Positions 13,016 to 63,424 of a stretch of 64,000 nucleotides of DNA are shown here, piece after piece; position 1 is the stretch's first letter; each line of letters opens with the position of its first letter. The stretch spans positions 2,048,501 to 2,112,500 of the forward strand of contig OY987246.1 of NCBI GenBank assembly GCA_963920765.1, read 5' to 3'. Source of the DNA: Ulota crispa. Its lineage: Eukaryota > Streptophyta > Bryopsida > Orthotrichales > Orthotrichaceae. Position numbers and translations under genes: made by a program. The notes beneath the pieces are model-generated. The model searched no databases. It was not told the DNA's origin and was given only the letters and a program-made list of their open reading frames with translations.

Positions 13016-13900
13016 TTAACCCCTAAAACTCCTTCGTGTTTACATGCTCAAATGACTTCAAACTGACCTCTCTCAATAAAACAATAAGTGGATCAAATTT
13101 TTGAGTCTTTTTCAATAATTCAACTGTAAGATCTATTTTATTGCTTACTTATGTACACCCTCTCAAGATTTCAGACTTTGTAAGAGCATATCTCATTAGA
13201 CAATAACACCTAAAGTAGGACCAAAGTTTTTTTTTTGAAGCTTCTCTAAAACACCAATTTTTATTTTGGTCATCCAAAATGATATCTTCCACTTTGTGAA
13301 CTTCTTGAGCAATTTGAATTTCTTGTAGAGCTTGAAGATGGCTATACCCCGCACAAATTTTATGATCACTCTATGTTTAAAACATAGTGGAAAAACATTG
13401 GAAGTGGGAACTACTTTGTTGAAATTGTTATTACTCAAAGAATTTTTCATGAAAAGTATTCTTGTAGTAATTCATCTCAATTGCAAAGTCCATGCAATGT
13501 GATGTAAAACATCATGTGGAGTACTTGCCAAAGTAATTTTTTTCTAAAAATAAAAAATAAAATTGAAGTTATTATATAGTCAAGGAGAGTTGACTGCAAA
13601 TTTTGCCTATTGATTGAGCCATTGTAAATAGCTTTTGAACACTTTGTAGGCAACACCCTCCTCAGTCCCTTTGTTTCTGATTTTTTTAGAGATGCTTGTG
13701 TTGACACCTAAATCGCATATAGTACCACATCTTAGTCAAAAATTATTCGATTCCAAAAAATAAGTTGGAAGGATTGCAAGCTTTTCAATATGAACATATG
13801 CACCCTTATTTTCACAATCTCATCTCAAGCATTTACACAAAAAATGCTTTCCCAAATATCCAAAAAGCCCAAAGTGGGCTACTTGGTCCTTAAGGGGTAA
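13016..13900 (+). mobile_element. TTAA element, family A copy 1 (piggyBac-like MITE)
   Basis: Starts TTAACCCCTAAAACTCC and ends CTTGGTCCTTAAGGGGTAA (right TTAA mutated to GTAA). 885 bp. It aligns along its length with copies at 28006 and 31622 (shared internal words such as TTACATGCTCAAATG and GAGTACTTGCCAAAGTAA). Non-coding. Confidence 0.8.
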
Positions 13901-14160
13901 ATTTAGGATGCATAGTTATACAATATAGTGTAATTTTTCAAGGGAAAAGTTGACGATTATTACTGAAAATTTGCTATCTTTGAACAAATGCCTTCAATTT
14001 TTCAAGAATTGCACGAATAAAACTTAACATCACAAAGAAGCATCATAAGATAGTTTTGCAAGTATTCATCTTTTGTTTTGTCTTTGTGTGTTCCTAAGCT
14101 TCAAACAATTTTCTCTATGATATGTATATAGGTATATATATATACATATACATATATACA
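13901..14160. other. AT-rich spacer ending in a TA/CA microsatellite
   Basis: No gene. Ends with an alternating TATA/CATA stretch (about 14120-14160) that borders the next element. Confidence 0.5.
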
Positions 14161-14568
14161 GGGAATTACTACAGCGACACCCTAAATTGCTAACAAGACA
14201 CCCCCTTTGAGCATGAAATTTGATAATTTAGAGCTATTTTTATTTATTAGTGGTCCATCATTCATTCAATCATAACATTATCACCTCCTTGAAAGAAAAC
14301 ATGACAATTACAAAAAAAATTGAAATGTTGTTGCACCAATACTATTTTTTGATAAATTTTTGCTTTCAATAACTCAAAATTCTTATATTTTTAGTTTGAA
14401 ATTTAAGCACACCTATTTTTTTATTTTAGTATAACCTTAGAATGTCAAAGGTGAAACAAATTTTTTGATTCAAATTAAAAAATTAGCAAAATTAACATTA
14501 AAAATCACATTTTCATGCTCAAAGGGGGTGTCCCGTTAGCAATTTAGGGTGTCACTGTGGTAATTCCC
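14161..14568. mobile_element. P-family TIR element, copy 1
   Basis: Terminal inverted repeats of over 50 bp: left GGGAATTACTACAGCGACAC, right ending GTGTCACTGTGGTAATTCCC. The repeats continue through CCCTAAATTGCTAA and CACCCCCTTTGAGCATGAAA. 408 bp, AT-rich interior, no coding capacity. A relative lies at 32794. Confidence 0.8.
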
Positions 14569-15656
14569 TATATAGTTAAAGCATTCATTACAAGATCTAA
14601 AAACATTGATTTTGAAAAAGTAAAATAACTATGTCAAGGATAATTGTGCAATTTCCAAAAAAACCAAAGGCGTTTCTACAAATACTGCAAATTTTGGGGA
14701 TACACATCAAATTTTCCTTTTTTTCAATTAGGAATGATCCCAAATGTCATCTTTACGATTAGCTCGACTAGCTAATACGTTGCCTAAAATTCTAGAATGA
14801 TACAAATTAAGTACTATGAAATCACAGTTTTCTTGCTATAAAATCAAAATGGTGTGCAATTTTGTTAAATTTAGCTAAATCTGTGAACATTAGTAGTTGA
14901 TATTTTAGCCATGGTTGTCATGGAATGTTCTTCATATGCCGACTCTTGATTTCAACCCTTAATCATCAGCAACACATTTTGCTTCTTGGTGTACATAGGA
15001 AGTGTAGTTTGAACACAAAGATTTGCTTACAAGGTTCAAAAACTCTAATTCATTTTGGTTTTTATTTTTATTGTAACAAGTAGGTATGATTTTCACAATA
15101 AAGTAAAAGATTTTTAATTTTTCTGAAAAAGTGTTGTACAAGTAAGAAAAATATATATCCACATGAAAGGTCTCAAAATGCAAAAACATGTTGCACATGG
15201 TATCTTTGTCAAGTCTAAGCAGCTAATGTACTGTACTACATGAGGGCATGTCATCGGAGAAGGATACATGCCCAATTGTCATTTTTCCAAAACATCCACT
15301 CACCGCCTCCTTGTAAGCTACACAAACGCTTATCCCGCTAATGATTATGCTATGTATAGTATTTTTCTTTGCAATACGTAAATGGCTGTATCGCACAAAG
15401 CTCAGATTCTTTGTTTGAGCTTGTATCATTTTATTTCCACCCATCTAAAAATTTTATTTCAAAAAATGCCAACAACTATATAATTCACCGAAAGCTCCAA
15501 TGCATATGCAAACATGAAGAGTTTTTACATTTAAAACATGAATACACACACAAAAAAACCCTTAGGTGTTTAAAAATTTCAGCCTAAAAACAAATAAGTT
15601 ATTTGTTTATTCTTTTGACGTATTCAATGAGTCGTCACAATCAAGCGGACCTTACC
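14569..15656. other. AT-rich intergenic DNA, nothing recognised
   Basis: About 1.1 kb with only short chance frames (longest 79 codons, no motif). No paired inverted ends found. Confidence 0.5.
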
Positions 15657-15888
15657 TTAACCCCTGAAAGGCCCTTGGGCTGTCGAGCTACATTATCAAA
15701 TACGGTTGCAATAAACATTCAGAAGTTTGAATCAGTTGGAAATTAAGTGTTACAACCATACATATTGAAGGGTTGTATGATGGTGGGTGCATAAAAAAAT
15801 TTGGAAAGCTCTCAGAGCAACTCAAATACGTCTATACATATGCCCATACATATGGCCGTAGAGGGCTTTTGTGTCATTCAGGAGTTAA
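15657..15888 (-). mobile_element. TTAA element, family B copy 1 (232 bp)
   Basis: TTAACCCCTGAAAGGCCC at the left, TCATTCAGGAGTTAA at the right. Interior includes the pair ACGGTTG / CAACCGT and GGTGGGTGCATAAAAA, shared with the copies at 39858, 40101 and 46634. All four are exactly 232 bp with both TTAA included. Confidence 0.85.
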
Positions 15889-15935
15889 TATAATTGCCCA
15901 AAGCAACACTCTTACCCAAGGGTGAGAGAAATGTA

Positions 15936-16232
15936 TACACTAAATAGTGCATTTGGGTTGCCTTACCTTGAAAGTTACCTCATTACTCAGTGCTTGGTTA
16001 CTTGGAGGCACATGCGACTTTCTAAATACTAAGAATTCACACGGTTTACAACTTGGAGGTTGTTAGTTTGTTTTTACTTAGCTTTGTTGTTGTTGCCAAG
16101 CCCTCATTGCTATTAAAATTTGTCTATAGCAATAGTTATTGATAAATAATAGTGTACTATAAACAAGTATTTCTATAGTGTAAAATGCTAAAAAAATTAG
16201 TGTGGGGCAACCTAAATGTAATATCTAGTGTA
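15936..16232. mobile_element. N-family TIR element, uninterrupted copy N1
   Basis: Inverted ends TACACTAAATAGTGCATTT...GGTTGCC and GGCAACCTAAAT ... TAGTGTA; about 297 bp, non-coding. As the uninterrupted member it is the reference for insertions in N2 (16231), N3 (28862) and N4 (44777). Confidence 0.8.
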
Positions 16233-17356
16233 CACCAAATAGTGCATTTAGGTTGCCTTAACAATTAGGTTGTCTTACCTAGCAAAGTTGCCTCATGACT
16301 CAACCTCGGCCACCTAGAGGGGCATGCAACTCTCTTTATGCAACAATAATTCCTAATTATGTGCAAAGTTCCAGCTTTCTTGCCCCATGTCTTTGGCGCT
16401 TGTTGCTGCGCCCAACCTTTACTTGCTTCCTCCATTGTTTATCATAGCAATTATTGACAAAAGTCACTATAGTCTTGGTCAATATTTAAATAGTGTGAAA
16501 CGTCAAGAATTTAACCCCTAAACTATAAAAGTTTGTTAAATAGTCGGTTGAAAGTTTGAGTAGGTACCTTTCAAGTCAATTTTTGGAGGATGTTTTTGAA
16601 ACTTGGAGACAATGTGCACACAATGAATACCTTTGTGGGAAAGAAAACTCCAATTGGATGCTCAAGTAAAAAGTTATGCTGACCAAAAGATTTTGGGCAC
16701 CTTGGGCAGTTTGGGCATCCTTGGAGAATCTTATGCTAAAACTCTCATTAACTTTTGAAACTTGGCATATATGTAAATAATAAAACATGGCACACAATTG
16801 TAAAAAAAAATGAGCTCTCACATCACATTCTAAGAGGAGTCAAATTTTGTTAATTATGTTTGGATAGTTTCAAGAAAAAATATTTTCTTCTAACTTTAGG
16901 CCCTATTATCTTTCAATCTATAAACCCAAAGCTCTTAATTTTTTTAAATTTTCCTCATGTTTGTCTATAACTTTTCACCGTTCAGATTTCAAACAAATGA
17001 CTTCCTCATTGCACAGGAAATCATGAAAGAATGATTAATGTTTTACCAATTCACTAAACCTCTTTGCATTGCAGGATGATTTATAATAAACTAGATTCTA
17101 TATTTGCTTCTGAAATTTTTCATGAGTTGACCTAACATCATGTACTTATGAATGGTCAAAAAGTTCATATTTGTGTAGAGCAAAAAACTTACTTTACAAG
17201 GCCTCAAAGTTTGCTAACCTTATTTTGCAAGAATGAAGAAAAGTTGTTTTTCTCACTTCAAACATTATAACCTTACAATCTGTGTGGTCAAATGGGCTAA
17301 TTTTTTTCTCACACATTTCTTTATAACTTGTACATTACACTTTTGTATGGTTTAAA

Positions 17357-17397
<41 letters not shown>

Positions 17398-17517
17398 TTT
17401 TAAATTTTATTTTGAAATTTAAACAAATCATCAAAAAATGGCGTTTTTGGTTGTATTTTTTTGTGCAACACCCGTCTGGCTTTAGGGGTTAATATGGGGC
17501 AGCCTAAATGCACTAAG
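16231..17517. mobile_element. N-family element N2, split by a family F element
   Basis: Left part starts TACACCAAATAGTGCATTTA at 16231; right part ends GGCAGCCTAAATGCACTA about 17515. The middle (16511-17492) is a TTAA element. The right end abuts a CACTA MITE and the outermost bases are missing there. Confidence 0.75.
16511..17492 (+). mobile_element. TTAA element, family F copy 1, nested in N2
   Basis: TTAACCCCTAAACTATAAAA at the left, GGCTTTAGGGGTTAA at the right; 982 bp. Homologous through its length to 42641-43626 and, inverted, to 62449-63424 (shared GGATGTTTTTGAAA and GAATCTTATGCTAAAACTCT). Contains a (TA)n microsatellite at about 17360-17393. Non-coding. Confidence 0.85.
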
Positions 17518-17949: not shown

Positions 17950-18700
17950 TTAACCCCTAAGCGCCCATGACGTTTTCACCAAAATCAAGGTTTTTGGCGA
18001 CTGGCAAATTTGATGCATTCTATCTTAGTCAATCAAATGATCCACAAAAAGTGACCATTGAAAATAGTGGAACACCTACTTAGAAAATGGTTTGCAAATT
18101 TTGGGAACAATTGATTATGGGAGATGGGAGACAATAACATTTGATCAAACAACATGTGATGACAAAATCTCATTTTTTGGTGGGTAGTTGCTATTTCATG
18201 ATTTTTACAAAATTCTATAAGCCCATGATTCATCTTAAATTTTGTGTGCAGCAAAATTTGATGTGAAATCACACACTTGTAAATTACTAAAGATTGCACT
18301 TCTTTTTATGTTAAGTTTTAGGGCATCAAATCGCTTTTGCACGGAAAACAACGACGGTGACAGTTGCCATAATAAGGGTCTAGAACATGCTTGAACCCTT
18401 GCTAACAACTTTCCCACTGCCACAAAGCTTACACAAGGAAGCTTGCAAGGGATATTGATCAGTTGCAACCTGTAAAACGCTGCTTGTCACCACTTCCCAT
18501 ATGGTGTTTCACCTAATCAAATCTCTTGCAGCTCTTACACAACATTTGGCTTTCCTCACCATTACTCCATTGGCATGGACAATTTGAATGCCTTCATAAT
18601 TGCAATTTATATCAAAACCAAAAAGTTAGATCAAGTACCTTAAACAAGACTTTAAATTCGTGGGAGCCAGATTTGAGGAGCTCGAGCTCTCAAGGGTTAA
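17950..18700 (+). mobile_element. TTAA element, unassigned family
   Basis: TTAACCCCTAAGCGCCCATG at the left and GAGCTCTCAAGGGTTAA at the right, 751 bp. Interior is less AT-rich from 18320 on and has no recognised coding sequence. No second copy seen in the window, so the boundaries rest on the two ends only. Confidence 0.6.
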
Positions 18701-18750
18701 GAGCCTCATTGGAGCATTCTAGGATTTGTAGTGGTTGCTTTTAGGACTCA

Positions 18751-21054: not shown

Positions 21055-21706
21055 TTAACCCCTAAATGCCCAAGTGACCAGATATGGATCTTTACAAAAC
21101 TGTGAAGATGAATAAAAACTTATCAAATCATTAATTTCAGTATTGTTTTTTCAATATAAGTTTGTTTTGAAGTCTACTTTCAACATCAAAAATCTGATTT
21201 TGAAAATGAAAGTTGATGATTTTTCTACTCAAGATTTTGTGTAAGAATGTCCACTGCAATCTTAAGTTTTCTAGTGTTGGAAGATCTTGAAAATGAGTTT
21301 CAAATACACTAGAGCTTGAAGAAAAACCCACATTAAAAATCCATTTAAAAAAAATGTAGAAGTAGATTTTTAAAACTGTAAATTGACTAGAGTTAGACAT
21401 GTAATGACCTTAAATCTCATTTTTTTTAGTGATCAACTTTTTAGATTTGACATGTGAAATGAGGATTAGAAGACTTTAAGTCACTTTTACAGTTTTAACA
21501 CCCTCATGTTCAAACAGTATGATCTTTCAAACTATAAGTGACATTGTTGTGTTTTCTTTTTCCATGTAATCTCTAACATGTTTAATTTATATTTGTATGA
21601 TTACAATTGAAAAAAATTTCATGGAATTTTTGAAAAATTTGTTTCATTGTTTTGTTTCATGAAAATTCCAAGAAGCTCAGATAGGGCTTGGGCAATTATG
21701 GGTTAA
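21055..21706 (+). mobile_element. TTAA element, family C copy 1
   Basis: TTAACCCCTAAATGCCCAAG at the left; GGGCTTGGGCAATTATGGGTTAA region at the right; 652 bp. Homologous to 34417-35075 and 59831-60484 (shared CATCAAAAATCTGATTTTG-type and ATTTTGTG..A..GTGTCCA words). Its right TTAA (21703-21706) is also the left TTAA of the next element. Confidence 0.8.
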
Positions 21707-22331
21707 CCCCTCAAAGACCAAGTAGTGTTTTCACCAAAAACTCTCCAAAGCTTCCATTTTTAGAGCATCAATAAAATTTGAAAAAAAGAACATTTCTATG
21801 CATATGTAACCATATGATCTTATAGCTTGATAGTTTAAGAAGATTTGGAAAAAAACACAAAATTTTCCATTGCATGGATTAGAAGATAGAATGGTTTGAA
21901 TATTCAGAAACGTCTTGTCAAAAATCAGGCACCTACCCTTCAAAAAGTAAAATTCCTAAGAAAAAAAGGCCATGTTGGTGGTTCTTCTCTACATTCCTTA
22001 TACTCCCTAAGTAGGGTACATGTCCAAAACCAAATCAAAACATCTTGAATTATACAATATATGGAAAAAAATAGTAAGTAAAAAGAAGTAGAGAACTATT
22101 CAAAACAATAAATTATTAAGAATTTATTTATGGAGATGAAAAATGCCAATCCCAATGGTGGTAATGTTGTGATGAACAATATATATCCTTTGGCTTTGTT
22201 TTTTTCCAAGAATAATGAAAATATAGTAGGATAAAGGATTTCAAAGTTTATTTTAAAGTAGAGAATCTATTAGCAAAATTCTGAGCCCTCCAGAAGGCCC
22301 CTACAAATGGCGGCGCGGTACATTATAGAGG

Positions 22332-22382
<51 letters not shown>

Positions 22383-22881
22383 TAAAACTATCATTGCACA
22401 TGATCTAACTCTCGATCTGACTGCTCGCAGATGTCAGAATCTGCCATTTCTAACTGTCACAGAAATGGCAATTTTTTTCTCTATATGCACATCTCTCATG
22501 TCATGGTAGGGGCGTTCTAGAAGACTCAAATTTTTCCAAACAAAAACTCCTCATAACTTTCATTTCATTGATAAAAATAAAATGATTCATTGCTTTCCAC
22601 ATTCACATAAGTCTCATAAACCAATTTTGGGTTTTTGTTTTTGAAAGAAGTGATTTTTAAAAATCTACCTAGGCTGCCCACCGTGTGAAAAAAACAACAT
22701 AGTAGGCCATTTCTTCCTATTCATACTTTCAAATATCTTGAAATTTAGTGCGTATGAAAGATAAACCTTGTTCCCACGTTCTATTAGAATTTCAGCCTAA
22801 AATTTGAAAATCTCCAATCAGAGTACCTGCCCAAAATTGCAATGTTGCCTAAAAGAAGGGGCTTGGTCCTTTAGGGGTTAA
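21703..22881 (+). mobile_element. TTAA element, family D
   Basis: TTAACCCCTCAAAGACCAAG at the left, GGGGCTTGGTCCTTTAGGGG then TTAA at the right; 1,179 bp. Contains a long (TA)n run (about 22327-22376) and, in its right half, the ACTCCTCATAACTTTCATTT segment shared with families E, H and J. Non-coding. Confidence 0.75.
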
Positions 22882-23056: not shown

Positions 23057-23995
23057 TTAACCCCTAAAGGATTGAGCTCTTTTTTGTGTCAGAATCATTG
23101 AAAACTGCCACTTCTAAGGGATGAGTAAGAAGGTAGGTTCTTTTTTCTTTTTTGGGAAATCCAACTGTAGGATCTTGCCTTATACTAGAAGAGGTACTTG
23201 TGGGAAAAAAATCAGATCATTCTAAATAGAGATGAGGGAGATATTTACATCTGAAGTGAAAATAAGGTATTTTTCCGAGCTATCCAAAACATTTAAAAGC
23301 CTTTGACCACTCTTACATGAAAAAAAGTGCTCTACACAAAGTTGAGATTTATTTTTTCCATGTAAAAGATCAAGTTAGGCATGTGTGGGAGAATTTTCAA
23401 ATCAACTGGAACTATACAACACATGGGAAAATAATAGTAAGTTAGAAGAAGTAGAGAATGAGTCAAAGCACTAAATTGTTAAGAATTTAATTATTGAAAT
23501 GAAAAATGCAAATCCCAACGGTTATAATGTTGTAATAAACAATCTACATCGTTTGGTTTAGTTATTTTTCCAAAATATTGAAAACTGTGAAAAATATAGG
23601 GCTTCAAAGTTTATTTTAGAGTAGAGGATCCGTAATTGCCCACAAACTAAAACGTCTCATAACTTTCATCTCATTGATTGAAATGGAATGATTCAAAGCT
23701 TCCCATGTGTAAAAAAATCTAAAGAACCAATTTCAAATTTTAGTTTTAGAAAAATGGAAATTTTAAAGAAGTTTTTGGGCTGCCCGGATTGCCCTCCCAC
23801 CCTTGGGCAGCAAAAATTCTTGCATAACTTCTTTGTCAAATGTCAAAATGAGGAAAAAATTAGATGCCCACATAGATCTTTGAATTCCCCATCTTCCATA
23901 AAAGTTTTGGAAAATTACACAAAGCAGTTTAGCCATATGTACATGCCTGAAATCTCCATTATCCCCCAAAGGGGCAACAGTCCTTTAGGGTTTAA
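23057..23995 (+). mobile_element. TTAA element, family E copy 1
   Basis: TTAACCCCTAAAGGATTGAG at the left, GTCCTTTAGGGTTTAA at the right; 939 bp. Homologous to 25096, 56969 and, inverted, 37429. A 105-codon frame over its right half (23688-24005) is partly kept in other copies but disrupted, and matches no known protein. Confidence 0.8.
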
Positions 23996-25095: not shown

Positions 25096-26018
25096 TTAAC
25101 CCGTATAGGACCAAGCCCTTTTTTCTTTAAAAATCACTGAAAATTGCTACTTTTGGGGGCATGAGTTGAAAGGTAGGAAAAACAATTATTTTTGGAAATC
25201 CAACTATAAGATGTTGCCCTCGACTATGGGAGGTACTTGTGGGAAAAAAATCAACTCATTCTAGATGTAGAGGAGTGAGATATTGACATTTGAAGTGAAA
25301 AAAAAAAGTTTTTCCCTACTGCCCAAAAATTTCAGAAGCCTTTGATTGCCCTTAAATCAAAAAAATTGCTCTACGCAAAGTTGAGGTTTATTTTTTCCAT
25401 GTAGAAGACCAAGTTAGGTAAGTGTGGGAGAATTTTCAAATGAATTAGAGGTGTTAATCATACTTTGTAAAATCTTGCAATGCCATAAGGCCATGAAATT
25501 TGTAAATACACTAGGCAAAATCGGAGGATCTATGTAAAATTGAGAAATATGAATAATGTTGATCCAAATGGTGAAAACCAAGGAATCTTAGTCTACTACA
25601 ACTTGGAAAAAAAAGAAGTCAAGAAACAAATTCACAAAGAGCACAAAAAAGTAAAGTAGCAAAGGCAAAAGAAAGGAATTATGGGAGTCTTGTACTTGCC
25701 TACAAACTAAAACTTTTCACTCATAAATCCAAATTGAATGATTCAAAGCTCCCCATATATATATAAATCTAAAGAACCAATTTCAGATTGTTATTTTGAA
25801 AAAAAAAATTGGTTGCCTGATCTCGCATGTTTTCAAAAATTCATGCATAACTTCTTCAATAATTGTCAGAATGAAGGAAAAATTAGATGCCCATCTAGAA
25901 TTTTAAATTCCCCATCTTCAATAAAAGTTTCAAAAAATCACGCAAAGTACTTTAGCCATAGGTACATGCCCAAAATCCCATCTGTCCCCCATAGGGACAA
26001 TGGTCCTTTAGGGGTTAA
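25096..26018 (+). mobile_element. TTAA element, family E copy 2
   Basis: TTAACCCGTATAGGACCAAG at the left, GGTCCTTTAGGGGTTAA at the right; 923 bp. Aligns with 23057-23995 throughout, including GGGAGGTACTTGTGGGAAAA and AAACTTTTCACTCAT-type blocks. Confidence 0.85.
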
Positions 26019-26248: not shown

Positions 26249-27092
26249 TTAACCCCTAAAGCCATGAACACCCTTTTTTGGAAACATATCAATTTTGGGC
26301 ACCTCACTACCAATGGGGGTTTCATTTTTTTTCTTTGAAATTTTCACACATGATGTGTCCAAGGAGTAGCTTTAAGGCCCAACAATTTTCATTACTTTTG
26401 ACTTCATGATTCAAAAGTTATTGCATGATATGTACTTTTCTTTACTCTGCGGGCAGCTAAAAAACTCTTTAAAAATTATATCTTTTGATTTTTTTTTTTG
26501 AATTGGTACTTTAGATTTATTTGTACTTGAAAAGCTTTGAATCATTCCATTTTGATCAAAGAGATGAAAGTTATGAGGAGATTTTGTTTCCAGGCAGTTA
26601 TGGATTCTCTATTCTAAAATAAAGTTTGAAGTCCATTAATTTACTCAATTTTCAATATTTTAGAAAACAAAAAAAAACTAAAAGATAAAAATTGTTTATC
26701 GCAACATTATAACCATTGGGATTGGAATTTTTCATTTCTATAATTAAGTTCTTAATAATTTAGTGGTTTGAATCATTCTCTACTTCTTTTTACTGACTAT
26801 TGTTTTTCTATGTGTTTTACAATTCTAAATAATTTGAAATTTTTCAAATGTGTACCAACTTGCTTTGAAGAACAAGTCCAAAGAACTACAACCATTTTGG
26901 AGTTTTTTTCATTCAAATATGACCTTGTGAAGTGTAGCTGCCCAGATTTTGGCGAAGGCAAAAAATGGCTCTTTGTCAATTCAAAATGAAATATTCAACA
27001 ATCTACATGATGATGAAAACTCTTGAATTTTTTTTCACATCTTTTGATACTAGTGTAGTACAAGATTTTATGGCTTTGTTTGTCAAAAAAAG

Positions 27093-27124
<32 letters not shown>

Positions 27125-27193
27125 TTGGTACTTGTACTAGAAATGGCAGTTTTGGAGCAATTTTGGTGAAAATTTGAGCTTAGTGCTTTAGGG
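26249..27193 (+). mobile_element. TTAA element, family H copy 1
   Basis: TTAACCCCTAAAGCCATGAA at the left; the right end GTGCTTTAGGGAA merges with the next element. Left part matches 50717 and 58302 (TTTCACACATGATGTGTCC, GTTATTGCATGATATG). Includes a poly-T tract (27091-27119). Right boundary uncertain by a few bases. Confidence 0.65.
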
Positions 27194-27431
27194 AACCCCT
27201 AAAGGACCAAGCGACCATTGTACATACTATATACACTGCTATATAAGTGGTATTTGGAATGCATCCACACCTCTACTACATTTGATATCAACACAAAAGT
27301 TAAAATATAGACAAATACAGTTCTAGTGAGCTAATCAAGATCCCAAATTAAAACTTTTTGTTGGTAACAATATGCGAGTTATACAATAGCTACATCTATG
27401 TACAATGGTCGCTCGGTCCTTTAGGAGTTAA
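27190..27431 (+). mobile_element. TTAA element, family I copy 1 (about 240 bp)
   Basis: Left AACCCCTAAAGGACCAAGCG, right CGGTCCTTTAGGAGTTAA. Interior ATGCATCCACACC and CAAGATCCCAAATTAAAACT is shared with the interrupted copy at 29208. The left TTAA is degenerate and fused with family H. Confidence 0.75.
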
Positions 27432-40089: not shown

Positions 40090-40100
40090 AAAGGTCCTTC

Positions 40101-48273: not shown

Positions 48274-48743
48274 TTAACCCCTAAAGGACCAAGCCCCCTT
48301 TTGGAGGACAAATGGGATTTTGAGCATGTACCTATGGCTAAACTACTTTGCGTGATTTTTTGAAAATTTTATGGATGATGGGGAATTCAAAGGTTTACAT
48401 GGGTATCTTTCATTTTGACATTTATTGAAGAAGTTAAAAATGGATTTTTTGGAAAACATGCAAGGTTGGGCAGTCCAAAGACTTTTTTAAAAATTGCCTT
48501 TAAAAAAATAAAATATGAAATATGTTCTTTAGACTTATATATACATAGGGAGCTTTGAATCATTCAATTTTGATTAATGAGATGAAAGTTATGAGAAGTT
48601 TTTATTTGTGGGTAGGTGTGGAAAATCTCAAAACCATGCCTACCTGCAAACTGAAAGTTCTCATAACTTTCATCTCATCAATCAAAATTGAATGATTCAA
48701 AGCTCCCCACGTCTATAAAAGTCTAAAGAATCTATTATATATA

Positions 48744-48827
<84 letters not shown>

Positions 48828-49067
48828 TATATATAATTCAATTTTTAAAGAAGTTTTTGGTCTGCCCAATCTCACTTGTTTTTTGAAATTCATTTTTAAC
48901 TTCTTCAAAAAATATCAAAATGAAGAAAAAATTAGACGCTCATGTAGATATTTGAATTCCACACCTCCAATAAAAGTTTCAAAAACTTACAAAAAATAGA
49001 TTAGCTGTAGGTACATGCCCGAAATCCATTTGTCCCTCGAGGGGACAGTTGGTCCTTTAGGGGTTAA
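48274..49067. mobile_element. TTAA element, family J copy 1 (foldback) with (AT)n core
   Basis: TTAACCCCTAAAGGACCAAG at the left, TTGGTCCTTTAGGGGTTAA at the right; 794 bp. The two halves are near-complete inverted copies (GGCATGTACCTA, GAAAGTTATGAGAAGTTTT) meeting near 48640, with a roughly 100-bp (TA)n microsatellite in the right arm (48736-48835). Confidence 0.85.
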
Positions 49068-49277: not shown

Positions 49278-50323
49278 CCAACCCCTAAAGGCTCAAGTGG
49301 ACCCTCGAGGGCCAAGTGGGGTTTGGGCATGTACTTATAGCTAAATTACTTTATGTGATTTTTTGAAATTTTTATAGAAGATGGGGAATTCAAAGATCTA
49401 AGTGGGCATCTAATTTTTTCCTTATTCCGACATTTATTAAAGAAGTTAAAAATGAATTTTTAGAAAATAAGGGAAGGCAAGCAGAGTAGTTTTTTTTAAA
49501 AATTGCATTTAAAAAAAATTAAAAAATGAAATAGGTTCTTTAGACTTATATATACGTGGGTCGTGGGGGGCTTTGAATCATTCAATTTTGATAAATGAGA
49601 TGAAAGTTATGAGAACTTTTAGTTTGCAGGTAAGATATGGTTTCAGTCAAAATTGAATGATTCAAAGCCCCCCACGTATATAAGTCTAAAGAACCTATTT
49701 CATATTTTTATTTTTTAAAAATGAAATTTTTAAAGAAGTTTTTGGGTTGCCTAGCCTCCCCTATTTTCCATAAATTCATTTTTAATTTCTTCAATAAAAG
49801 TTAGAATGAAGAATAAATTAGATGCCCATGCATATAATTGAATTCCCCATCTTCTATAAAAGTTTCAAAAATCACACAAAATAATTTAACTGTAAGTACT
49901 TAAGGTAGGCACACTCATAAGCAAGAATAAGGGTTTTGGAGTAGGTAAAATAATTGAACAACTTTGAGAAAAATATTGTAAGCTAGGAAATGGAAACCAA
50001 AAATATTGGCATCAATTTCAAGGTTCCAACTACAAGCATTTGTTCACAAAGATTTTTCAAAGTCCAAAATCACTGAAATTATAAGGACCATGTGTAAAAG
50101 ATGCTAAAAACAAGGCTTGCTGGTTCTCAAATAGTGAAATGGGTACTCAAAACCGTCATGGAGTCACCCACAACCATCACTTTGTCACCCATAAATATCA
50201 CCTAAGTATCCATAAGCACCCTAAGCACCCTGACATTGTCAGTAACGCCCATGGGTGCGGCTACCTTACATGCCCAAGACCTGACTTGGCCCCCAAGGGT
50301 CCACTTGGACCTTTAGGGGTTAA
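49278..50323. mobile_element. TTAA element, family J copy 2, carrying an insertion
   Basis: Left CCAACCCCTAAAGGCTCAAG, right CCACTTGGACCTTTAGGGGT then TAA. Foldback arms as in copy 1. The right arm is broken after GTAAGTAC by 49898-50270, which begins AAGGTAGG and ends CTACCTT, a separate TIR insertion. Confidence 0.7.
49896..50271. mobile_element. AAGGTAGG TIR insertion inside J copy 2
   Basis: J consensus reads GTACATGCCC. Here GTAC is followed by TTAAGGTAGGCAC and, about 370 bp later, GCGGCTACCTTACATGCCC. Short inverted ends AAGGTAG / CTACCTT; the flank duplication is TAC or TTA and cannot be settled. Interior has repeated GTCACCCACAACCATCAC-like words. Confidence 0.5.
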
Positions 50324-50670: not shown

Positions 50671-51573
50671 TAAGGTAGGAGGTCCATAAATCAACCATTC
50701 AATTCTACCTAATTCATTAACCCTTAAAGCCTTCAGCATCCTTTTTTGGCAACATAGAAATTTGGGCAGCTCATTATCAATGGGTTTTTCATTTTCTTTT
50801 TTGAAATTTTCACACATGATGTGTCCATGGAGTAGCTTTAAGGTCCAACAAATTTCATAAGTTTTGACTTAATGGTTCAAAAGTTATTGCATGATATGTT
50901 GTTTTTTTTGCTCAGCAAGCAGCTCATGTAGCTCACAAAAAATTCTTTAAAAAATACATTATTTTTATTTTTATTTTTATTTTTGAAATCTGTTTTTTAG
51001 ATTTATATAAATGTAGAAAGCTTTTAATCATCCCATTTTAATTAATGAGATGAAAGTAATGAGGAGTTTTAGTTTGCCAATAGGTATGGAGTCTCTCAAA
51101 ACCACACCTACTGGCAAACTAAAACTCCTCAGTACTTTCATCTCATCAATTAAAATTGGATGATTCAAAGTTTTCCACATTTACATAAATCTACAAAAAG
51201 AAATTTACAAATAAAATCAAAATAATAATAAAAATTTAATTTTTAAAGAAATTTTTGTGAGCTGCTTGGGCTACTTGCTGAGTAAAGAAAACAACATATC
51301 ATGCAATAACTTTTGAACCATTAAGTCAAAACTTATGAAATTTGTTGGACCTTAAAGCTCCTCCATGGACACATCATGTGTGAAAATTTCAAAGAAAAAA
51401 AAAAAAAAAAAAACCCATTGATAGCAAGCTGCCCAAATTGCTATATTGCTAAAAAGGATGCTCAAGGCTTTAGGGATTAATGGCAATAATAGACATATGA
51501 AGGAATATGTTACTCATTCTTAAATAAGGAACGCATTTAGAATGTGGTCACTTTTAAAGCTTCCTACCTTAGA
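50671..51573. mobile_element. AAGGTAGGAGG element hosting a family H insertion
   Basis: Left TAAGGTAGGAGGTCCATAAA, right AAAGCTTCCTACCTTA (inverted). The central 50717-51480 is a TTAA element. Confidence 0.55.
50717..51480. mobile_element. TTAA element, family H copy 2 (foldback)
   Basis: TTAACCCTTAAAGCCTTCAG at the left, CTCAAGGCTTTAGGGATTAA at the right; 764 bp. The halves are inverted copies meeting near 51095 (GATGAAAGTAATGAGGAGTT / AACTCCTCAGTACTTTCATC). Confidence 0.85.
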
Positions 51574-52446: not shown

Positions 52447-53312
52447 TTCAACCTTTTAAGGTCTGTGCATCCAAAATGTGGATGCACCTTGGTCAATCTT
52501 GATTGTAACTTTCAAAATATCAATTTTTGGTACATGGTTCAAACTAATAAAATGAAGCTTGACAAGTTTTCTTTCTATTCCATATAATTTCTTTGAAAAA
52601 TGCCATAACTTGGAAGAGTTATTGCCATTGAAAGCTCCAAATGTTAGAGTCCAAATAACACAATATGGTGTGTTTTTCATTCATATTTTCAATTTATAAA
52701 TACATTTTTATTTTAAACTAGAAAACTATGTTTTTCATCCTACCATTCTTTTATGGTAGAAATTACAATTTTTTTAAGTTTACATTCTAAATGATATGAT
52801 TTTATTTCCACATTTAGCTTTAAAAAATCACAATATTTGAAATTTTCATCAAATTTGTTAAAAAAAAATAGCATAAGTAGAAATTGAATGTGTCTTCTAG
52901 CAAAAAGTATCAATAATGTTATACATTAATCAAATATAAGGATAAACTTGGTTTGATAGTCAAATCTGATTTTAAATTTTTGGTTTTGGCTGATTTGGGT
53001 GTAAAAAGTAAAATAACCAATTGAACTTTTTTCACACTAATCTATAATGCTACTTGTACCTCTTGCAAAAAGTTCAAGCAATTTGGATTTTTTTTGCTAT
53101 TTTAACTTATTTTTGTTCATTTTTTGAAAAGAAAATAATAACAATTACAAATTTTCATGAAACAAACTGAAATTTCTTGCAATGATATATCATCCATAGT
53201 TTCAAGCACCAAAAACATAAAATTGTTGTTTGAACACACTTTAAAAGGTAAAATTTAGCTTAGACATGAAGTTTGACCATTTCAAAATGGATCACGTCCT
53301 TTAGGGGGTTAA
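52447..53312. mobile_element. Probable TTAA element, left end decayed
   Basis: Clear right end CGTCCTTTAGGGGGTTAA; the left end is probably TTCAACCTTTTAAGG near 52448. Very AT-rich, non-coding. Single copy in the window. Confidence 0.4.
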
Positions 53313-53723
53313 GGGTTAATCTTCAAATTGGGTTAGTTTTTTATCCATTTCTTTTTATTTCCTTTTTACCGGGTAGCGAAAGTACCTCTTTCACTAGGTA
53401 ACTAGAATTTGAGCAGGTAGTGAACCAATCTGCACAAATCATCTTGACAGTACTGAAGACTGACCGCTGAAATTCTCCATCAGCAAAAGCTCCACTTCCA
53501 ACATCTTTTTGCATATTCAGCCAGTCACAACAAAATGGGTGCTTGACCTGAACAGCCTCTGGAGTGTAGGACACGTTCGTAGGTTTTAAAGAATGTTTGC
53601 AAGCGTTGGGGCACAAGTAACCCTCTGTCAAGTTTTTGCATACCAAATGACCATGATGTTGATTTTAGGAATAGTCCTCCTAAGAGTGCTGAGGGCTATT
53701 GTAGAGTTGGGAGTTTGGGACTT
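53313..53723 (-). other. Unassigned sequence with a 101-codon Cys-containing frame
   Basis: The minus-strand frame 53646-53341 reads with several Cys and few low-complexity stretches (HPFCCDWLNMQKDVGSGAF). It is the least repetitive frame in the AT-rich part, but I recognise no family and no splice context. It may be a captured exon or chance. Confidence 0.25.
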
Positions 53724-53732
53724 GGGAAACAA

Positions 53733-54143
53733 GGCGATTGATATGTCTACCACACCCTTTCAGCTATTCTATCACACCCAGGTATAAATTTTAGATTTTT
53801 ATCACTAAATAGTTGAATTTGAGAATTTGGAATCCAGATTTGGACTTAGAGATCTTGATTTTGTCTAAAACCATAAAAAAAAAATTGTAATTGAACAACA
53901 CCCAATGAAAAAGCTTAGCTCAAGGGAAAATAATTACTTTTACTTTTGTTTATAAAAAAAGATAAGCTTTTTCATCAGGTGTTGTTCAATTAAATTCTTT
54001 TTATGATTCTCTACCAAATCATAGTCCCGAAGTCCAAATTTGAATTCCAAATTCTCAAATTCAGCTTTTTGATGGTAGAAATCTAAAATTTACCCCGGGT
54101 GTGGTAGAATAGCTGAAAGGGTGTGGTAGACACATCAATCCCC
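53733..54143. mobile_element. L-family element L7 with 9-bp target duplication
   Basis: Long inverted arms: left GGCGATTGATATGTCTACCA, right TGGTAGACACATCAATCCCC; arms extend through ACCCTTTCAGCTATTCTA to AGCTTTTTCAT. Flanking GGGAAACAA at 53724-53732 and 54144-54152 is a perfect 9-bp duplication. 411 bp. The interior resembles L5 and L6. Confidence 0.85.
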
Positions 54144-54184
54144 GGGAAACAATTAGTTTGTAAAAGTATTATATCCATTAGAAA

Positions 54185-54519
54185 CTAACCCTGAAAAGGA
54201 CATTTGCGGTCCTTGTGGGGGCAGCCCTAAGAATAAGAAACAAATGTGGAGGTTTGGCATGAATGCATCATCAATCACAACTACAAAAACAACCACATGG
54301 GAAGTTGGTCTGAAACTTGGGCAAGAATGAGATTCTTTAGAAAAGCTTACGTTCTCATTGCAAGCAAGCATGGACAAATTCAATGTTACAAATAAATGCA
54401 AAAGATGACTAGCTTTGAGTCATGTTGCCTAGATTACCACCACTGAGTTGCACTCTTGCACAAAGAAATATTGTGTGAACACCAAGGTCTTAGAGCTAAG
54501 TATGTCCTTTAAGGATTAA
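54185..54519 (+). mobile_element. TTAA element, unassigned, 335 bp
   Basis: Left CTAACCCTGAAAAGGACA, right TGTCCTTTAAGGATTAA. Ends are inverted; TTAA is decayed on the left. Non-coding. Confidence 0.6.
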
Positions 54520-56900: not shown

Positions 56901-56968
56901 GTAGATTTGACCCCATGTGTACATACTACAAAAATAAGGTGTACATATATACAGTATATCAATCGCTT

Positions 56969-57895
56969 AACCCCTCAAGATCCAAACCCTTTTTTTAGTG
57001 AAAATCACTAAAAACTCACTTTTGGAGGAATGAATAGGAAGGTAGGAAAAAAAGTTTCTTTCAAAAATCCAACCGTAGGATCCTATGGGAGGTACTTGTG
57101 GGAAAAAATTAGCTCATTCTAGATATAGAGGAGTGAGATATTGACATCTAAAGTGAAAAAACAATTTTCCCCCTTAATGGCCAAAAATTTCAAAAGCCTT
57201 TGATTGCTCCTATATCAAAAAAAAATGCTTTACACAAAGTTGAGGTTTGTTTTTTCCACGTAAAAGACCAAGTTAGGTATGTGTGGGAGAATGTTCAAAT
57301 GAATTAGAGGTGTGAAACATACTTTGTAAATTCTTCCTATGCTGTAAGGCCATAAAATTTGCAAATACACTAGGCAAAACTGGAGGATATATGTAGAATT
57401 CAGAAATGTGAATTACTTTGATCCAAATGTTGAAAACCAAGGAATCTTAGTCTACTACAACTTGGCAAAAGAAAAGTAAAAAAAAAGGAACTAAAACACC
57501 AAATTTTACAAAGGGCAGAAGGAGTTCAGGTTTGGGAGTTCCATATCCACCTGCAAACTAAAACTTCTCACTCATCAATCAAAATTGAATGATTCAAAGC
57601 TTCCCATATACACAAAAATCTAAAGAACCAATTTTAGAGTTTTATTTTTTTAAATGGAAGTTTAAAAAAAAAAATTTGGGTTGCCCAGACTGCCCGCCTT
57701 CCTTGTTGTTTAGAAATTCATGCATAACTTCTTTGATAAATGTCAGAATGAAGAAAAATTTAAATGTGCATATACATCTTTGCATTCCCCACCATCCTCA
57801 AAAGTTCCAAATTTTTTATAAAAATTAATTTAGTCATAGGTACATGCCCGAGGTCCAATTGTTCCCGAGGGGACACTTGGGCCATTAGGGGTTAA
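56969..57895 (+). mobile_element. TTAA element, family E copy 4
   Basis: TTAACCCCTCAAGATCCAAA at the left, TTGGGCCATTAGGGGTTAA at the right; 927 bp, aligned with 23057 and 25096 along its length. Confidence 0.85.
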
Positions 57896-58301: not shown

Positions 58302-58566
58302 ATGTTTATTTCTTGTTTTTTGGCAACATAGCAATTTTGGGCAGCTCACTACAAATGGAATTTTTATTTTTTTTCTTTAAAAATTTCACACATGATGTAC
58401 CCAAGAAGTAGCTTTATGGTCGAGCAATTTTCATAACTTTTGACTACATGGCTCAAAAGATATTGCATGATATGTTGTTTTCTTTTTCCGGGGGGGGGGG
58501 CAATTTGGGCAGCTCCTAAAACTTCTTTAACATTATATTTTTTATGACTTTTTTTGAAATTGGTTC

Positions 58567-58598
<32 letters not shown>

Positions 58599-59055
58599 CT
58601 TGAGAAGCTTTGAATCATTCTAGTTTTATTTATGAGATGAAAGTTATGCAGAGTTATGTTTTGTAAGTAGGTATGGAGTCTCTCTAAAACCATACCTACC
58701 CACAAACTAAAACTCTTCATAACTTTCATCTCATAAATCAAAATGGAATGATTCAAAGCTTCTCACATATACATATATATCTAAAGAACCAATTTCAAAA
58801 AAAAATCAAAAATATGTAATTTTTAAAGAAGTTTTAGGAGCTGCTTGGACTACCCCCAAACAAAGAAAACAACATATCATGCAATATCTTTTGAACCATG
58901 TAGTCAAAAGTTATGAAATTGCTTGACCATAAAGCTACTCTTTGGGCGCATCATGTGTGAAAATTTCAAAGAAAAAAAATAAAAACTCCATTTGCAATGA
59001 GCTACCTAAAATCGCTATGTTGCCAAGAAATAGTGCTTGGGCCTTGAGGGGTTAA
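58302..59055. mobile_element. TTAA element, family H copy 3 (foldback)
   Basis: Clear right end GCTTGGGCCTTGAGGGGTTAA region; the left end is decayed near 58302. Arms pair (GGCAACATAGCAATTTTGGG with the CGCTATGTTGCC side). Contains a (TA)n run (58571-58598) and a G10 tract (58491-58500). Confidence 0.7.
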
Positions 59056-59599: not shown

Positions 59600-59689
59600 A
59601 ACCTATGTACACGTTTATAGGTGTAATTTGATATTTTGACAAGAGGAATTTAGGCTCACAGCTCATGGGTCCCCGCTCACAATTTAGCA

Positions 59690-60680
59690 TTCCTCTCTAA
59701 GAAGATTAAGGTGGAAGCACCCATGTCCAATAACGCCCCATTCCCAACTAGTAGGGGGTGCTATTTCCACCATGAGCAAGGATAGGTGCTTTGGAATGTG
59801 TTTTTCTGACTTTTTCAAGGTTGGTGCTACTTAACCCCTATATGCCCAAGGCACCACATTTTGGTGCCGACAACATTTTGAAGTTCAATAAAATTTAACT
59901 AAGCTACTATTTTTAGTATTTAGTATTTCAATATTATTCTTTTTGAAGTCTAGTTTTAACTTCAAAAGCCCGATTTTGAAAATTATTAATTGTGAATTTT
60001 CTATTCAAGATTTTGTGCAAGGGTGTCCATTACAATCTTGACTTTTTTAGTGTTGAGAGCTCATGAAAATGAGCCTCAAATACACTAGATCTTGGAGAAA
60101 AATTCACACTAGAAATTCATTTTAAAACTTTGTAAAAGAGATTTTGAAAAACCGTAAATGGATCGGAGTTATGTATAGTATGCCCTTTGACCTCATATTT
60201 TTTTGGTGACCAAGATTTTAGATTTGACATGTGAAAAGAGGATTGAAAGGCCTAAAGTCATTTTTGCAGTTTTAACACCCTCTTGATTAAACATTATAAT
60301 CTTTCAATCCATAAATGGTACTGTTATGTTTTCTTTTCCTATGTGATATTTAACATATCTACTTTGAATTTGTATGGTTACAATTTACAAAAAGTTCATA
60401 CAACTTATCAAAATATTGGCTTTTTGTTCAATTTAGAGCAAATTCCTGAAAGCTCAAAAAAGGCCTTGGGCATTTAGGGGTTAAGTCATGCCACGTGTCC
60501 CAAGGTGAGGTAAGAAGCAATGAGCTGAAAGTAGATTGGCTAGTATTGGAATTGCATACATCTAGACATTGGCAATGAATGTGTAACACTTTTTGACTCC
60601 CAAAATTCATAGTAATTTCAGTTTTGTAAATAAAATTATGAAAAATTTGCAGTCCCAATACTTCTTATCTTCCTACATGG
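59690..60680. repeat. M repeat, copy 1, split by a family C element
   Basis: 59722-59834 and 60481-60680 together match the uninterrupted copy 63580-63890 (GGTGCTATTTCCA / GGTTTGCTATTTCCA; TTAAGTCATG; AAAATTTGCAGTCCCAATA / AAAATTTTGCAATCCCAATA). Class unknown. Confidence 0.7.
59831..60484 (+). mobile_element. TTAA element, family C copy 4, nested in the M repeat
   Basis: TTAACCCCTATATGCCCAAG at the left, CCTTGGGCATTTAGGGGTTAA region at the right; 654 bp. The empty counterpart of this site lies at 63692-63695. Confidence 0.9.
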
Positions 60681-61525
60681 AAAAAATATTTTTTACCTCA
60701 AACTCTTTGTAGTTTTGTGCAGAATCGCTTAAGTTATTGGATATGTGTGCTTCCACCTTATATCATATAACGTGCTTGCCTTTCCGCGCCTAGAGAAGTT
60801 GTATAGTACATAAGTTAAACTTAGTTAATTCTTTCAACATTGAAAAATGTTGCATGAAAGGTGTGACTTGTGATGACACATCTGTCAGTGCATTTGTAAG
60901 AACTGAAAACTGTAAAAAACAGAAATCAACTGGGCACCTTTGCAGGCACTGGGGCCTTTGCAACAGCAGGTTCACAATGCACATGAGGAAAGAGCAAATG
61001 GCTGGTACAGTTGTACTCACACTGGGTCCCATCCCATCCCATCCCATCCCATCCCATCTCTGTGCTGTCCAACTATTGTAAGGGCATGTCAATGTTGAAG
61101 AAAAATCTGTCCTTGTGCATGACAGATTTTGCATCACCAGTTTCGTAGACTTACTCTTATTAGCAATGCTAAATTTTTTATGAATTTTCATATTATAAAT
61201 TCCTCAAAATTGCCAAAAGCACTGAAAACATGGTAAACATTCAACCTCAAATCTCACAATAATAAAAATTTAGGTAAAAGTCTTGCTGCATTTAGCAGCA
61301 CTTGAAAACATTAGTTAGCAGTGGAAGAGCATGTTACAAGGGAGGTGTCAATTTTGACATTTTTTTTTTTTGTCAATTAGGTCACCCTAATTCAAACATT
61401 TTTATTGTCAATTTGGATATGTTTTTGTCAAATTTTGTCAATTTGTACGTTTTAGTCAATTTGAACGTGTCACTATAGACATTTTTTCTTATGCAACAAG
61501 GTCAATGCAAAAGAAGAAACCTAAG
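60681..61525. other. Intergenic DNA with microsatellites
   Basis: Holds (CCCAT)n at about 61027-61056 and a GTCAATTTGGACAT-type degenerate repeat (61355-61490) related to 63898-64000. A 133-codon minus-strand frame (60790-61191) runs through the microsatellite and has no recognised motif. Confidence 0.45.
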
Positions 61526-62030
61526 GGCCATTTCACACTATGGCCAAATGTTGAGGGGTTGTCAAATTTCACAAATGAGGTTGCAAAAAATCAAGACTTT
61601 GGCATCTTGACCCTTTTTCACACTAAAGGTCAAAATCCAAAATTTGTTACCTCAAAATTGCCTAAAGGACATCATTTTTTAGCCAAAACAATATCCTCTA
61701 AAAAAATTAGGGTCAATCAAAAATAGAAACCCAAACAACTTTTTTCATAAGATAATAAAAAAACAACAATATTTGAGCAGTTAGAAGGCTTGGATTTTGA
61801 GTTTGGCCTCTCGAGGATTCACACTATGACTGTTTAAGTTGAGAGATTATGAAAACTCATTGCCAAGAGTTTGGACCTTATTCTTTGAAAAATTCACATT
61901 AAATCTGGCATAAGGTTTCAAAAAATATATTTTATTACTTATTTTTAGACCATTTCTTTAACCTCTCAACAAATTTTAACCACTCAATCCCATGACCTCT
62001 CGACTTGATCACCCGTAATGCGAAGCAAGC
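61526..62030. mobile_element. O-family repeat, copy 2
   Basis: Left GGGCCATTTCACACTATGGC, right CCTCTCGACTTGATCACCCG then TAATGCGAAGC, imperfectly inverted (CACTATGGCC ... GAGAGG). Homologous to 38548-39004. Non-coding; class unassigned. Confidence 0.55.
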
Positions 62031-62448
62031 TAAGAACGTTCATTGGACACTCAACAAAACGGAGAAAAGTATTTGAATATATTTTTTCCTGGTTTCACAA
62101 GATATCACTTGAACTCATAGTACTTTGACAATTAATCAAATGATAGTGTTTTTGCTAAATTCCGGCCACCTTTATAAACATTGGAGATTTGGACTATGGT
62201 TCATGTTTCTTCATTATTGTTGAGTCTTTATAGGGTTGGAGAGAATTTGGGCTTAACTCACCTGTACTCCTCGCTACTACTTCGGCTATAACTCGAACTT
62301 GACTGGATGCAGCATGCTTTGAATGTTGACCTACCAAAAACCACTCTTTTCTACATCTGGTCTCTTCAATTTCCAATTTGCTTCAACTACAAGGCTAGTC
62401 ATGAATCCAACTATTCGTAATTAATTTGGTTAGCTTTTTGAGTTGTCT
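62031..62448. other. Intergenic DNA, nothing recognised
   Basis: About 420 bp, no gene recognised. Confidence 0.45.
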
Positions 62449-63424
62449 TTAATCCCTAAAGGACCAAGGGGTTGCTTCAAGAAACATTGTCAAAAACTGG
62501 GTTTTCTTGGTACGTTGATCAAAAATAAAAATAGATTTTTTTTATTGAAACTTCAACCATACAAAACTACAGTGAAATATTTATCCAATGTGTGGTGAAA
62601 CTTTCAGACCATTTGACTGAGCAGATTGTAAGATAATAATGTTTGAAGTAAAAAAAACAACTCTTTTTTCATTCCTGCAAAACAAGGTCGGCAAACTTCA
62701 AGCCCTCATGGAGTAGATTTTTTTGCTCTACACAATAATGAGGTTATTGATTATTCATAAGTATATGATATTAGGGTTACTCATGAAAATCTTTTGAAGC
62801 AAATATAGAATCTAGCTTATTCTAAATCACCCTGCAATGCAAGGAGGTTTAGTGAATTGGCTATACACTAGTCATTTTTTCATAATTTCTTATGCAACAA
62901 AGAAGTTTTTTATTTGAACCAAACGATGAAAAGTTAGAGGCAAACATTTGGAGTGTATGTGAAAAAAGTTTCAAGAACTTTGAATTTACCAAATGCAAAG
63001 ATAATAGGGCTTGAAGTGAAAAGAAATTATTTTTTCTTGAAACCGCCTAAACATAGTTGGACATAGTTAAAAAAGTTTGGCCCCTCTTAGAATGTGATTT
63101 GAGAGTTCAAATTTTCTACCTTTTTTGACAATTGAATACCATATTTTATTAATTACATACATGCCAAATTTCAAAAGTTGATGAGAGTTTTAGCATAAGA
63201 TTCCCCAAAGATGCTTGAGCTCCCCAAGCTGCCCAAATTCTTTTGGGTAGCATAACTTTTGAATAGGGCATCCAATTGGGAAAAAAAACTAGATTTCTAC
63301 TTGGGGATACATATCTACATCTTGTGTAACACTTTTGAGAACATCCAATATGAATTGACTTTGTATGACCCTACCCGAGTTCTCAAGTGTTTGTTAAACA
63401 AACTTTTGGCCCTTTAGGGATTTA
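62449..63424 (-). mobile_element. TTAA element, family F copy 3 (inverted)
   Basis: Left TTAATCCCTAAAGGACCAAG, right GGCCCTTTAGGGATTTA (TTAA mutated); 976 bp, reverse orientation relative to 16511 and 42641 (here GAGAGTTTTAGCATAAGATT). Confidence 0.8.

Follow-up and report, generated by a model that had tools for sequence, protein, structure and literature searches.

piggyBac-type non-autonomous transposons in the moss Ulota crispa and the transposase-bearing elements that have the same ends

A 64,000-nucleotide stretch of the genome of the moss Ulota crispa (assembly GCA_963920765.1, contig OY987246.1, positions 2,048,501 to 2,112,500; C5:2048501-2112500 in our coordinates), hereafter the window, contains in its AT-rich part many short elements that differ in length and interior and have the same ends next to a TTAA. 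Elements that have these ends and contain a piggyBac transposase gene were found elsewhere in the same genome, and we consider the window elements to be non-autonomous piggyBac transposons, with a probability of roughly 0.96. The assignment to this superfamily had been proposed in a first-pass annotation of the window and is supported by the transposases. Coordinates refer to the window unless an element or locus is named.

The pattern TTAACCCCTAAAKG, allowing up to two mismatches, has 53 matches in the window, compared to a mean of 1.56 and a maximum of 5 in 100 shuffles. A 20-position weight matrix derived from these 53 matches identified 64 sites with a score of at least 10, versus 9 in the reversed window, and its consensus is TTAA followed by TTAACCCCTAAA(G/T)G(A/C)CCAAG, with CCCCTAAA as the core. 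The elements terminate in CCCCT, which fits the CC[C/T]T terminus given, together with terminal inverted repeats (TIRs) of 12-19 bp, as a criterion of the piggyBac superfamily in a passage of PMC2872659. At the listing score of 8.5 the first end site is located at 13016, and none is found in the 12-kb G+C-rich start of the window. Opposed ends were matched by hand from the weight-matrix site list, which resulted in 20 two-ended elements (16,406 bp) and another one nested in a larger element (46634-46865), with sizes ranging from 232 to 1244 bp. Eight other copies are partial or one-ended, their second limit being drawn by homology, and the union of the two-ended and partial elements amounts to 20,967 bp, 41% of the region 12,500-64,000. 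Unpaired ends, for which the opposite side was not found, are present at 42089, 44322 (perhaps with 44700), 53311-53319, 54519, and 59599 and point to about five further copies. The interval 53312-54519 was considered as a ninth partial copy, which would have made the total 22,175 bp, and was dropped because both of its ends have the same orientation. The first-pass annotation, which had described same-ended elements of varied length and interior, gave the consensus as it was found here, and its figures of at least 30 elements and about 20 kb are fair if the partial copies are counted (21 two-ended, 8 partial, about five lone-end copies; 21.0 kb). Comparison of the window to itself revealed several groups that have only the ends in common, rather than one family. 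Terminal inverted agreement among the 21 two-ended elements extends over 12-21 bp in ten and 36-105 bp in four; three are whole-length foldbacks with 61-86% identity, and in the remaining four self-comparison detected none.

No transposase was identified in the window, where none of the nine open reading frames (ORFs) tried from the AT-rich part had a Pfam match (0 of 20 when 11 from the G+C-rich start are included) and a search of Rfam gave 0 matches. We searched the genome (274.8 Mb, 157 contigs) with the PF13843 profile; 116 of the 528 first-look candidates were scored and yielded at least 120 matches, all those listed being above the family cut-off (best E 1.3e-73). None of the listed matches is in the window, 412 of the 528 candidates being unscored. 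Thirty loci were fetched, and their 1.5-kb flanks included no CCCCTAAA ends, a single 2-mismatch site being located inside the matched part of L033, and no TTAA-anchored inverted pairs. This absence seemed contrary to the piggyBac assignment and was resolved for five loci when longer flanks were analyzed. Eleven loci were extended (L012, L022, L025, L026, L034, L038, L011, L009, L013, L023, and L032), and five of them turned out to be two-ended elements with CCCCTAAA ends and a PF13843 match inside: E12 (5746 bp), E22 (5456 bp), X38 (8255 bp), X26 (8530 bp), and X25 (8829 bp). The transposase found in the same-ended elements is that of piggyBac and of no other superfamily, and these five parents, together with the lack of a listed PF13843 place in the window, agree with the earlier suggestion that the autonomous source lies outside it.

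The E12 transposase matches PF13843 (DDE_Tnp_1_7) with an E value of 2.6e-59 and, among the structures in PDB, piggyBat (1.7e-16) and 6x67 (named 'Transposase', 3e-13), the latter of which we take to be the transposase of the T. ni piggyBac. Its translation includes the motifs VDEMM, DNFFS, and GVDVADQ and is interrupted by one TGA; a Cys/His cluster is visible at the C-terminal end, with no zinc-finger Pfam match. Nothing besides PF13843 was found when the E12 ORFs were compared to Pfam at E values up to 1, and neither THAP nor H2CH was present. Across the 30 loci the catalytic columns form a DDD triad, with D in 27 loci at the first, 22 at the second (7 N, 1 E), and 26 at what we presume to be the third; the first two columns align with the D residues of solved relatives. 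The loci with N at the second position are L010, L015, L016, L020, L021, L024, and L030. A midpoint-rooted tree of the 30 loci separates groups of 10 and 20, and all five two-ended elements belong to the group of 10. The differences per codon position between transposases are 147/113/269 for X26 and X25 and 87/63/171 for E12 and E22; since the third position changes most between related elements, the transposase gene evolved under coding constraint. TAG stops are present in many transposase copies; these stops and the N replacements are what C-to-T conversion of methylated DNA would be expected to produce.

The window elements were grouped in families A (13016, 28006, and 31622, named by their first nucleotide), B (15657, 39858, 40101, and the nested 46634), C (16511, 42641, and 62449), D (21055, 34462, 39248, and 59831), E (23057, 25096, 37429, and 56967, with relatives at 48274 and 49278), and F (50717, 58316, and part of 26249). 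Two kinds of elements could be related to the parents. The family E element 25096-26018, when reversed, aligns to the left-terminal 179-194 bp and the right-terminal 513-555 bp of X25, X26, and X38, with 72-89% identity. The element 45793-46948 aligns to the first 228 bp of E12 (64% identity) and to its last 586 bp in two pieces (83% and 94%), with about 118 bp between the aligned portions unaccounted for. Both are internal deletions of the parents in which the two ends were kept. The window elements, which lack a transposase and coexist with an autonomous relative, have the properties that define miniature inverted-repeat transposable elements (MITEs), and the internal-deletion link to that relative exists for these two kinds. 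For families A, B, C, D, and F, comparison of one representative per family to X25, X26, E12, and X11 revealed no deletion relation of this type, the only similarity being a 61% stretch between family C and X26.

The boundaries were defined using empty sites. The family B element 46634-46865 is nested in the E12-type element 45793-46948, and nucleotides 5660-5663 of E12 align on both of its flanks, which identifies a 4-bp duplication, TTAA. Empty paralogues of this insertion are E12 (L047), with TTAA, and E22 (L050), with TTCA, which was taken as decayed. For other elements the flanks were joined with one TTAA and matched against the genome. In the case of 59831-60484 there were 909 candidates, of which 40 were scored; each of these 40 matches continues through the junction, and a single TTAA is located exactly at the junction in ten of ten empty paralogues, which were picked among the full-length gap-free ones. 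The joined flanks of 16511-17492 gave 46 rows, 42 of which span the junction; of the remaining four, three are located within the window. The elements 21055-21706 and 21703-22881 adjoin over a single TTAA at 21703-21706. The target site obtained from the nested duplication and from 59831-60484 is the 4-bp TTAA, as the superfamily assignment had implied; the second insertion tested, 16511-17492, gave TTAA in 1/10.

Several of our observations weigh against this interpretation. The ten empty paralogues of 16511-17492 that were inspected include one with TTAA, eight with TTAG, and one with TTGG; with only one TTAA in ten, this insertion must have used a TTAA-variant copy. When the inner motif CCCCTAAAKGNCC, chosen without the TTAA, was located with up to one mismatch in the window and in loci L009-L084, an exact TTAA preceded just 46 of the 64 occurrences (52 of 64 with up to one mismatch), and the right end of E22 has TCAA instead of TTAA. 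The choice of loci was biased, as the first six extended (L012, L022, L025, L026, L034, and L038) were picked for the similarity of their flanks to the window; the resemblance consists chiefly of a palindrome found at 53737-54143 in the case of L012 and L022 and includes family E sequences as well in the case of L025, L026, L034, and L038. Six of the 11 extended loci lack two clear CCCCTAAA ends: L034 has a right end and L011 a candidate right end, the left ends of both not being resolved, and L009, L013, L032, and L023 have no CCCCTAAA pair. No parents were identified for families A, B, C, D, and F. Finally, of the 120 transposase matches listed, 110 contain stops and several of the ten stop-free ones are fragments, so that any present activity is putative.

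An alternative reading is that families A, B, C, D, and F rely on piggyBac transposases from clades other than those found with CCCCTAAA ends, the common ends being convergent or ancient. The genome does contain a second, deep piggyBac group, comprising 20 of the 30 loci. Of the three members that were extended (L009, L013, and L032), two have the gene surrounded by possible but unconfirmed pairs bounded by TTAA: TTAACCCCTCATCGCC / TTAACCCTTCATTGCC in L009, which agree at 12 of 16 inner positions and are the best of 338 TTAA combinations, and TTAACCCTTTAGGGACC / TTAACCCTTTAATGACC in L013, found by eye in the end list and not by the pair scan. However, the window families bear CCCCTAAA(G/T)G ends, which are those of the first group, and we regard this alternative as rather unlikely. 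A different TTAA-duplicating superfamily, Kolobok, also deserves consideration, as it is described in a passage of PMC6004289 as targeting TTAA. We rejected a Kolobok origin of these MITEs as very improbable based on the ends, which in Kolobok are RR (AGGRR or AG; PMC6004289, same passage) and here are CCCCT, and on the transposases located between these ends, which match PF13843, with no THAP or H2CH in the E12 ORFs (the genome was not searched for Kolobok). That an AT-rich composition and CCCTAAA motifs, which resemble the plant telomere unit, mimic the ends by chance is a negligible possibility considering the excess over controls (53 versus 1.56 in the window; 49,213 versus 154 genome-wide), the inverted pairing and the family homology, and the empty sites already refute it.

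The interpretation of the window elements as non-autonomous piggyBac transposons suggests the following mechanism. A DDD transposase produced by the much rarer 5.5-8.8 kb parents would recognize the common ends of about 20 bp, excise the element, and then join it at a TTAA, which would thereby be duplicated. Family E and the element 45793-46948 arose by internal deletion of such parents, and families A, B, C, D, and F would probably be mobilized in trans, either by these transposases or by related ones. The cut-and-paste chemistry, the cross-mobilization, and the cause of the amplification are inferred.

In the whole genome there are 49,213 occurrences of the 20-base end pattern when up to three mismatches are allowed, compared to 154 in the reversed control, and the copies number in the thousands. 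Fifteen evenly spaced 4-kb pieces of the ten largest contigs were taken as a density sample; they contain ten ends in 60 kb, all within five of the 15 pieces, and this density (0.17 per kb) is in agreement with the genome-wide value (0.18 per kb). The 64 kb of the window include 34 such ends, a density three times that of the average. By extrapolation, the elements would represent about 20 Mb (7% of the genome) at 0.82 kb per end pair, or about 30 Mb (11%) at the window ratio of 21.0 kb per 34 ends. In a survey of 207 plant genomes, the averages of the MITE share by plant group range from 0.7% to 2.2% (PMC12550479). We tentatively propose, as a possibility we do not yet favor, a moss piggyBac lineage characterized by unusually long parents that would code for a conserved upstream protein segment, ORF1, in addition to the DDD transposase, that would be among the largest piggyBac expansions in a land plant, and in which some copies would still be mobile.

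ORF1 is an open stretch common to X25, X26, X38, and X11, with 34-47% identity in the X26 matches. The distance to the transposase, which lies downstream of it, is 3-4 kb, except in X11, where it is about 0.5 kb. It has no Pfam match. The ORF1 differences per codon position are 62/47/83 for X26 and X25, 77/71/95 for X26 and X38, and 55/51/76 for X11 and X26; the third-position excess is absent between X25 and X38 (74/54/68). These counts suggest weak constraint at most. The match of the upstream ORF of E12 to E22 spans 50 codons only (19/17/21). ORF1 possibly belongs to the transposase gene as an upstream exon.

Family A includes 13016-13901 (886 bp), which has ends on both sides with TTTA in place of the right TTAA, and its homologues 28006-28787 (782 bp) and 31622-32505 (884 bp), both with ends. 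The segments 28251-28787 and 31971-32505 of the latter two are 97% identical, and most other pairs in the window are about 70-85% identical; this similarity could reflect a recent duplication or conversion. The family B element 15657-15888 (232 bp) has ends, and its homologues are 39858-40092, 40100-40330, and 46634-46868. The first of them is delimited by ends and homology as 39858-40089 (232 bp), the second has one clear end, is delimited as 40101-40330, and is 84.8% identical to 15656-15886, and the third is the nested copy. The family C element 16511-17492 (982 bp), with ends, sits in a multi-copy repeat that is also found at 16119-16223, 31132-31187, and 45583-45633 and has 1703 first-look candidate places in the genome, of which 40 were scored. 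The other members are 42641-43626, whose ends are partly decayed and which is 75% identical to 16512-17357, and 62449-63424 (976 bp), supported by ends and homology. Family D includes 21055-21706 (652 bp) and its homologue 59831-60484 (654 bp), both with ends, as well as 34462-35075, with a recognizable right end and 78% identity to 59876-60485, and 39248-39806, with a right end detected by the weight matrix; the left limits of these two come from homology. The high-copy repeat that hosts 59831-60484 is seen in the window at 59711-60604 and 63602-63778; the 909 first-look candidates mentioned above, of which 40 were scored, are its possible places genome-wide.

The four family E elements are two-ended: 23057-23995 (939 bp), homologous at both ends to 25096-26018; 25096-26018 (923 bp, minus strand), assigned as an internal-deletion derivative by its alignment to the X25, X26, and X38 termini; 37429-38344 (916 bp), with homology to the right end of X38; and 56967-57895 (929 bp), supported by ends and homology. 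Of the two relatives, 48274-49067 (794 bp) is a foldback element with a whole-length inverted self-match of 66% and a TA run in its TA-rich center, and 49278-50323 (1046 bp) has X26-type left-end and interior sequence, aligning with X26 at 3-187 and 417-795. A near-perfect palindrome of 726 bp (95.9%) occupies positions 43-768 of Y09 (L079); it has a TTAACCCCTAAAGGCCC end and resembles the 48274 element. Family F consists of the foldback element 50717-51480 (764 bp), with a whole-length inverted self-match of 86%; 58316-59055, with a right end and a left limit set by homology; and the partial copy 26249-26610, with one end and its homologue at 50716-51096. The element 45793-46948 (plus strand) is the E12-type internal-deletion derivative with the nested family B copy, assigned by alignment to the E12 termini, and the partial 35960-36278 has an E12-type left end (68.9% identity to 45793-46135 and 67.8% to E22 1539-1812). 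The other elements are 21703-22881 (1179 bp), with ends; 27192-27431 (240 bp), in which 20 of 24 end positions agree and the left TTAA is decayed to GGAA; 29208-30451 (1244 bp), with ends and a minisatellite (tandem repeat) inside at 29625-29946; and 17950-18700, a possible element with a weak pair of ends (14 of 24 positions agree) that was counted as partial.

The palindrome at 53737-54143 is about 407 bp long, has GATTGAT.TGTCTACCACACCC at its ends, and recurs in or beside E12, E22, E25, E34, and E38. It was considered as a part of the piggyBac elements and rejected, as it is found at differing positions within them, has other ends, and lacks TTAA/CCCC; it is taken for a separate foldback repeat. 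The first 12,000 nucleotides of the window are G+C-rich (56-67% per 4-kb step), include long overlapping ORFs, 11 of which were tried without a match in Pfam, and contain a tandem duplication of 180 bp at 2225-2585. Elsewhere the genome includes nuclear RuBisCO small-subunit genes, of which the one read shows an apparent intron, radial-spoke genes, which imply motile sperm, and a single LEAFY DNA-binding domain that is split between two exons. In PDB the small-subunit genes have their highest scores with chains taken to be land-plant enzymes and lower ones with chains taken to be from Chlamydomonas. The D and C residues of the LEAFY domain are presumably positions 312 and 345, as in type II. 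In the moss class Bryopsida, type II is the only LEAFY type described (PMC6588583). These genes point to a streptophyte, probably a bryopsid moss.

The first-pass annotation had also stated that such MITEs are little described in green plants, which is correct in part. No description of an endogenous moss piggyBac was found in the literature searched, most subscription journals being outside its reach; piggyBac is not mentioned in the main text of the 207-genome MITE survey, which includes four bryophytes (PMC12550479), or in the portions consulted of a paper on the transposons expressed in Physcomitrium (PMC7466625), and a table for a fern genome has a PiggyBac line at 0.00% (PMC6890710, in part). 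On the other hand, excerpts of one review list PiggyBac among seven angiosperm MITE superfamilies (PMC10004981), those of another count it among the plant superfamilies (PMC10794571), and two papers on animals refer in passing to piggyBac as known from plants (PMC10813416, PMC10140906). The angiosperm MITEs are similar to ours in the plant host and the superfamily name, but they were classed by TIR and target site duplication, and the passage gives no transposase-bearing partner (PMC10004981).

MITEs of piggyBac with known partners are described, in the passages available, from corals (PMC2872659) and Daphnia (PMC3849761, PMC4912750). The coral CMITEs and AmiPB1 (Acropora) resemble the U. crispa elements in the TTAA duplication, the CC[C/T]T-type terminus, the empty allele, and the identical ends of MITE and autonomous partner; they differ in the animal host and in their interiors, which are weakly similar there, whereas here 180-555 bp per terminus are common to MITE and parent (PMC2872659, same passages). 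Pokey and mPok of Daphnia also combine a member of the piggyBac superfamily with MITE derivatives, but Pokey uses a specific rDNA site in addition to others (PMC3849761, PMC4912750, in part), a preference that was not seen here, although rDNA was not tested. The piggyBac elements of T. ni and bees, as excerpted from PMC10140906, have in common with ours the DDD core and TTAA; they have a C-terminal Cys-rich region, to be compared with the Cys/His cluster visible in the E12 translation. The CCC terminus is shared with T. ni piggyBac, and many bee elements have CAC. The bee elements are 2.2-3.5 kb long with TIRs of mostly about 14 bp, unlike the five parents described here, which measure 5.5-8.8 kb, three of them 8.3-8.8 kb, partly because of inserted palindromes. 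The U. crispa transposons belong to a known kind of element, and their host, abundance, and parent length are unusual. While piggyBac transposons have been studied mostly in animals, here their ends occur in tens of thousands in a moss, with parents that can be identified. Should this be confirmed, a major component may escape those plant repeat pipelines in which scoring is limited to the five usual superfamilies, and mosses would be a natural system for the study of piggyBac biology and of the history of its spread among kingdoms.

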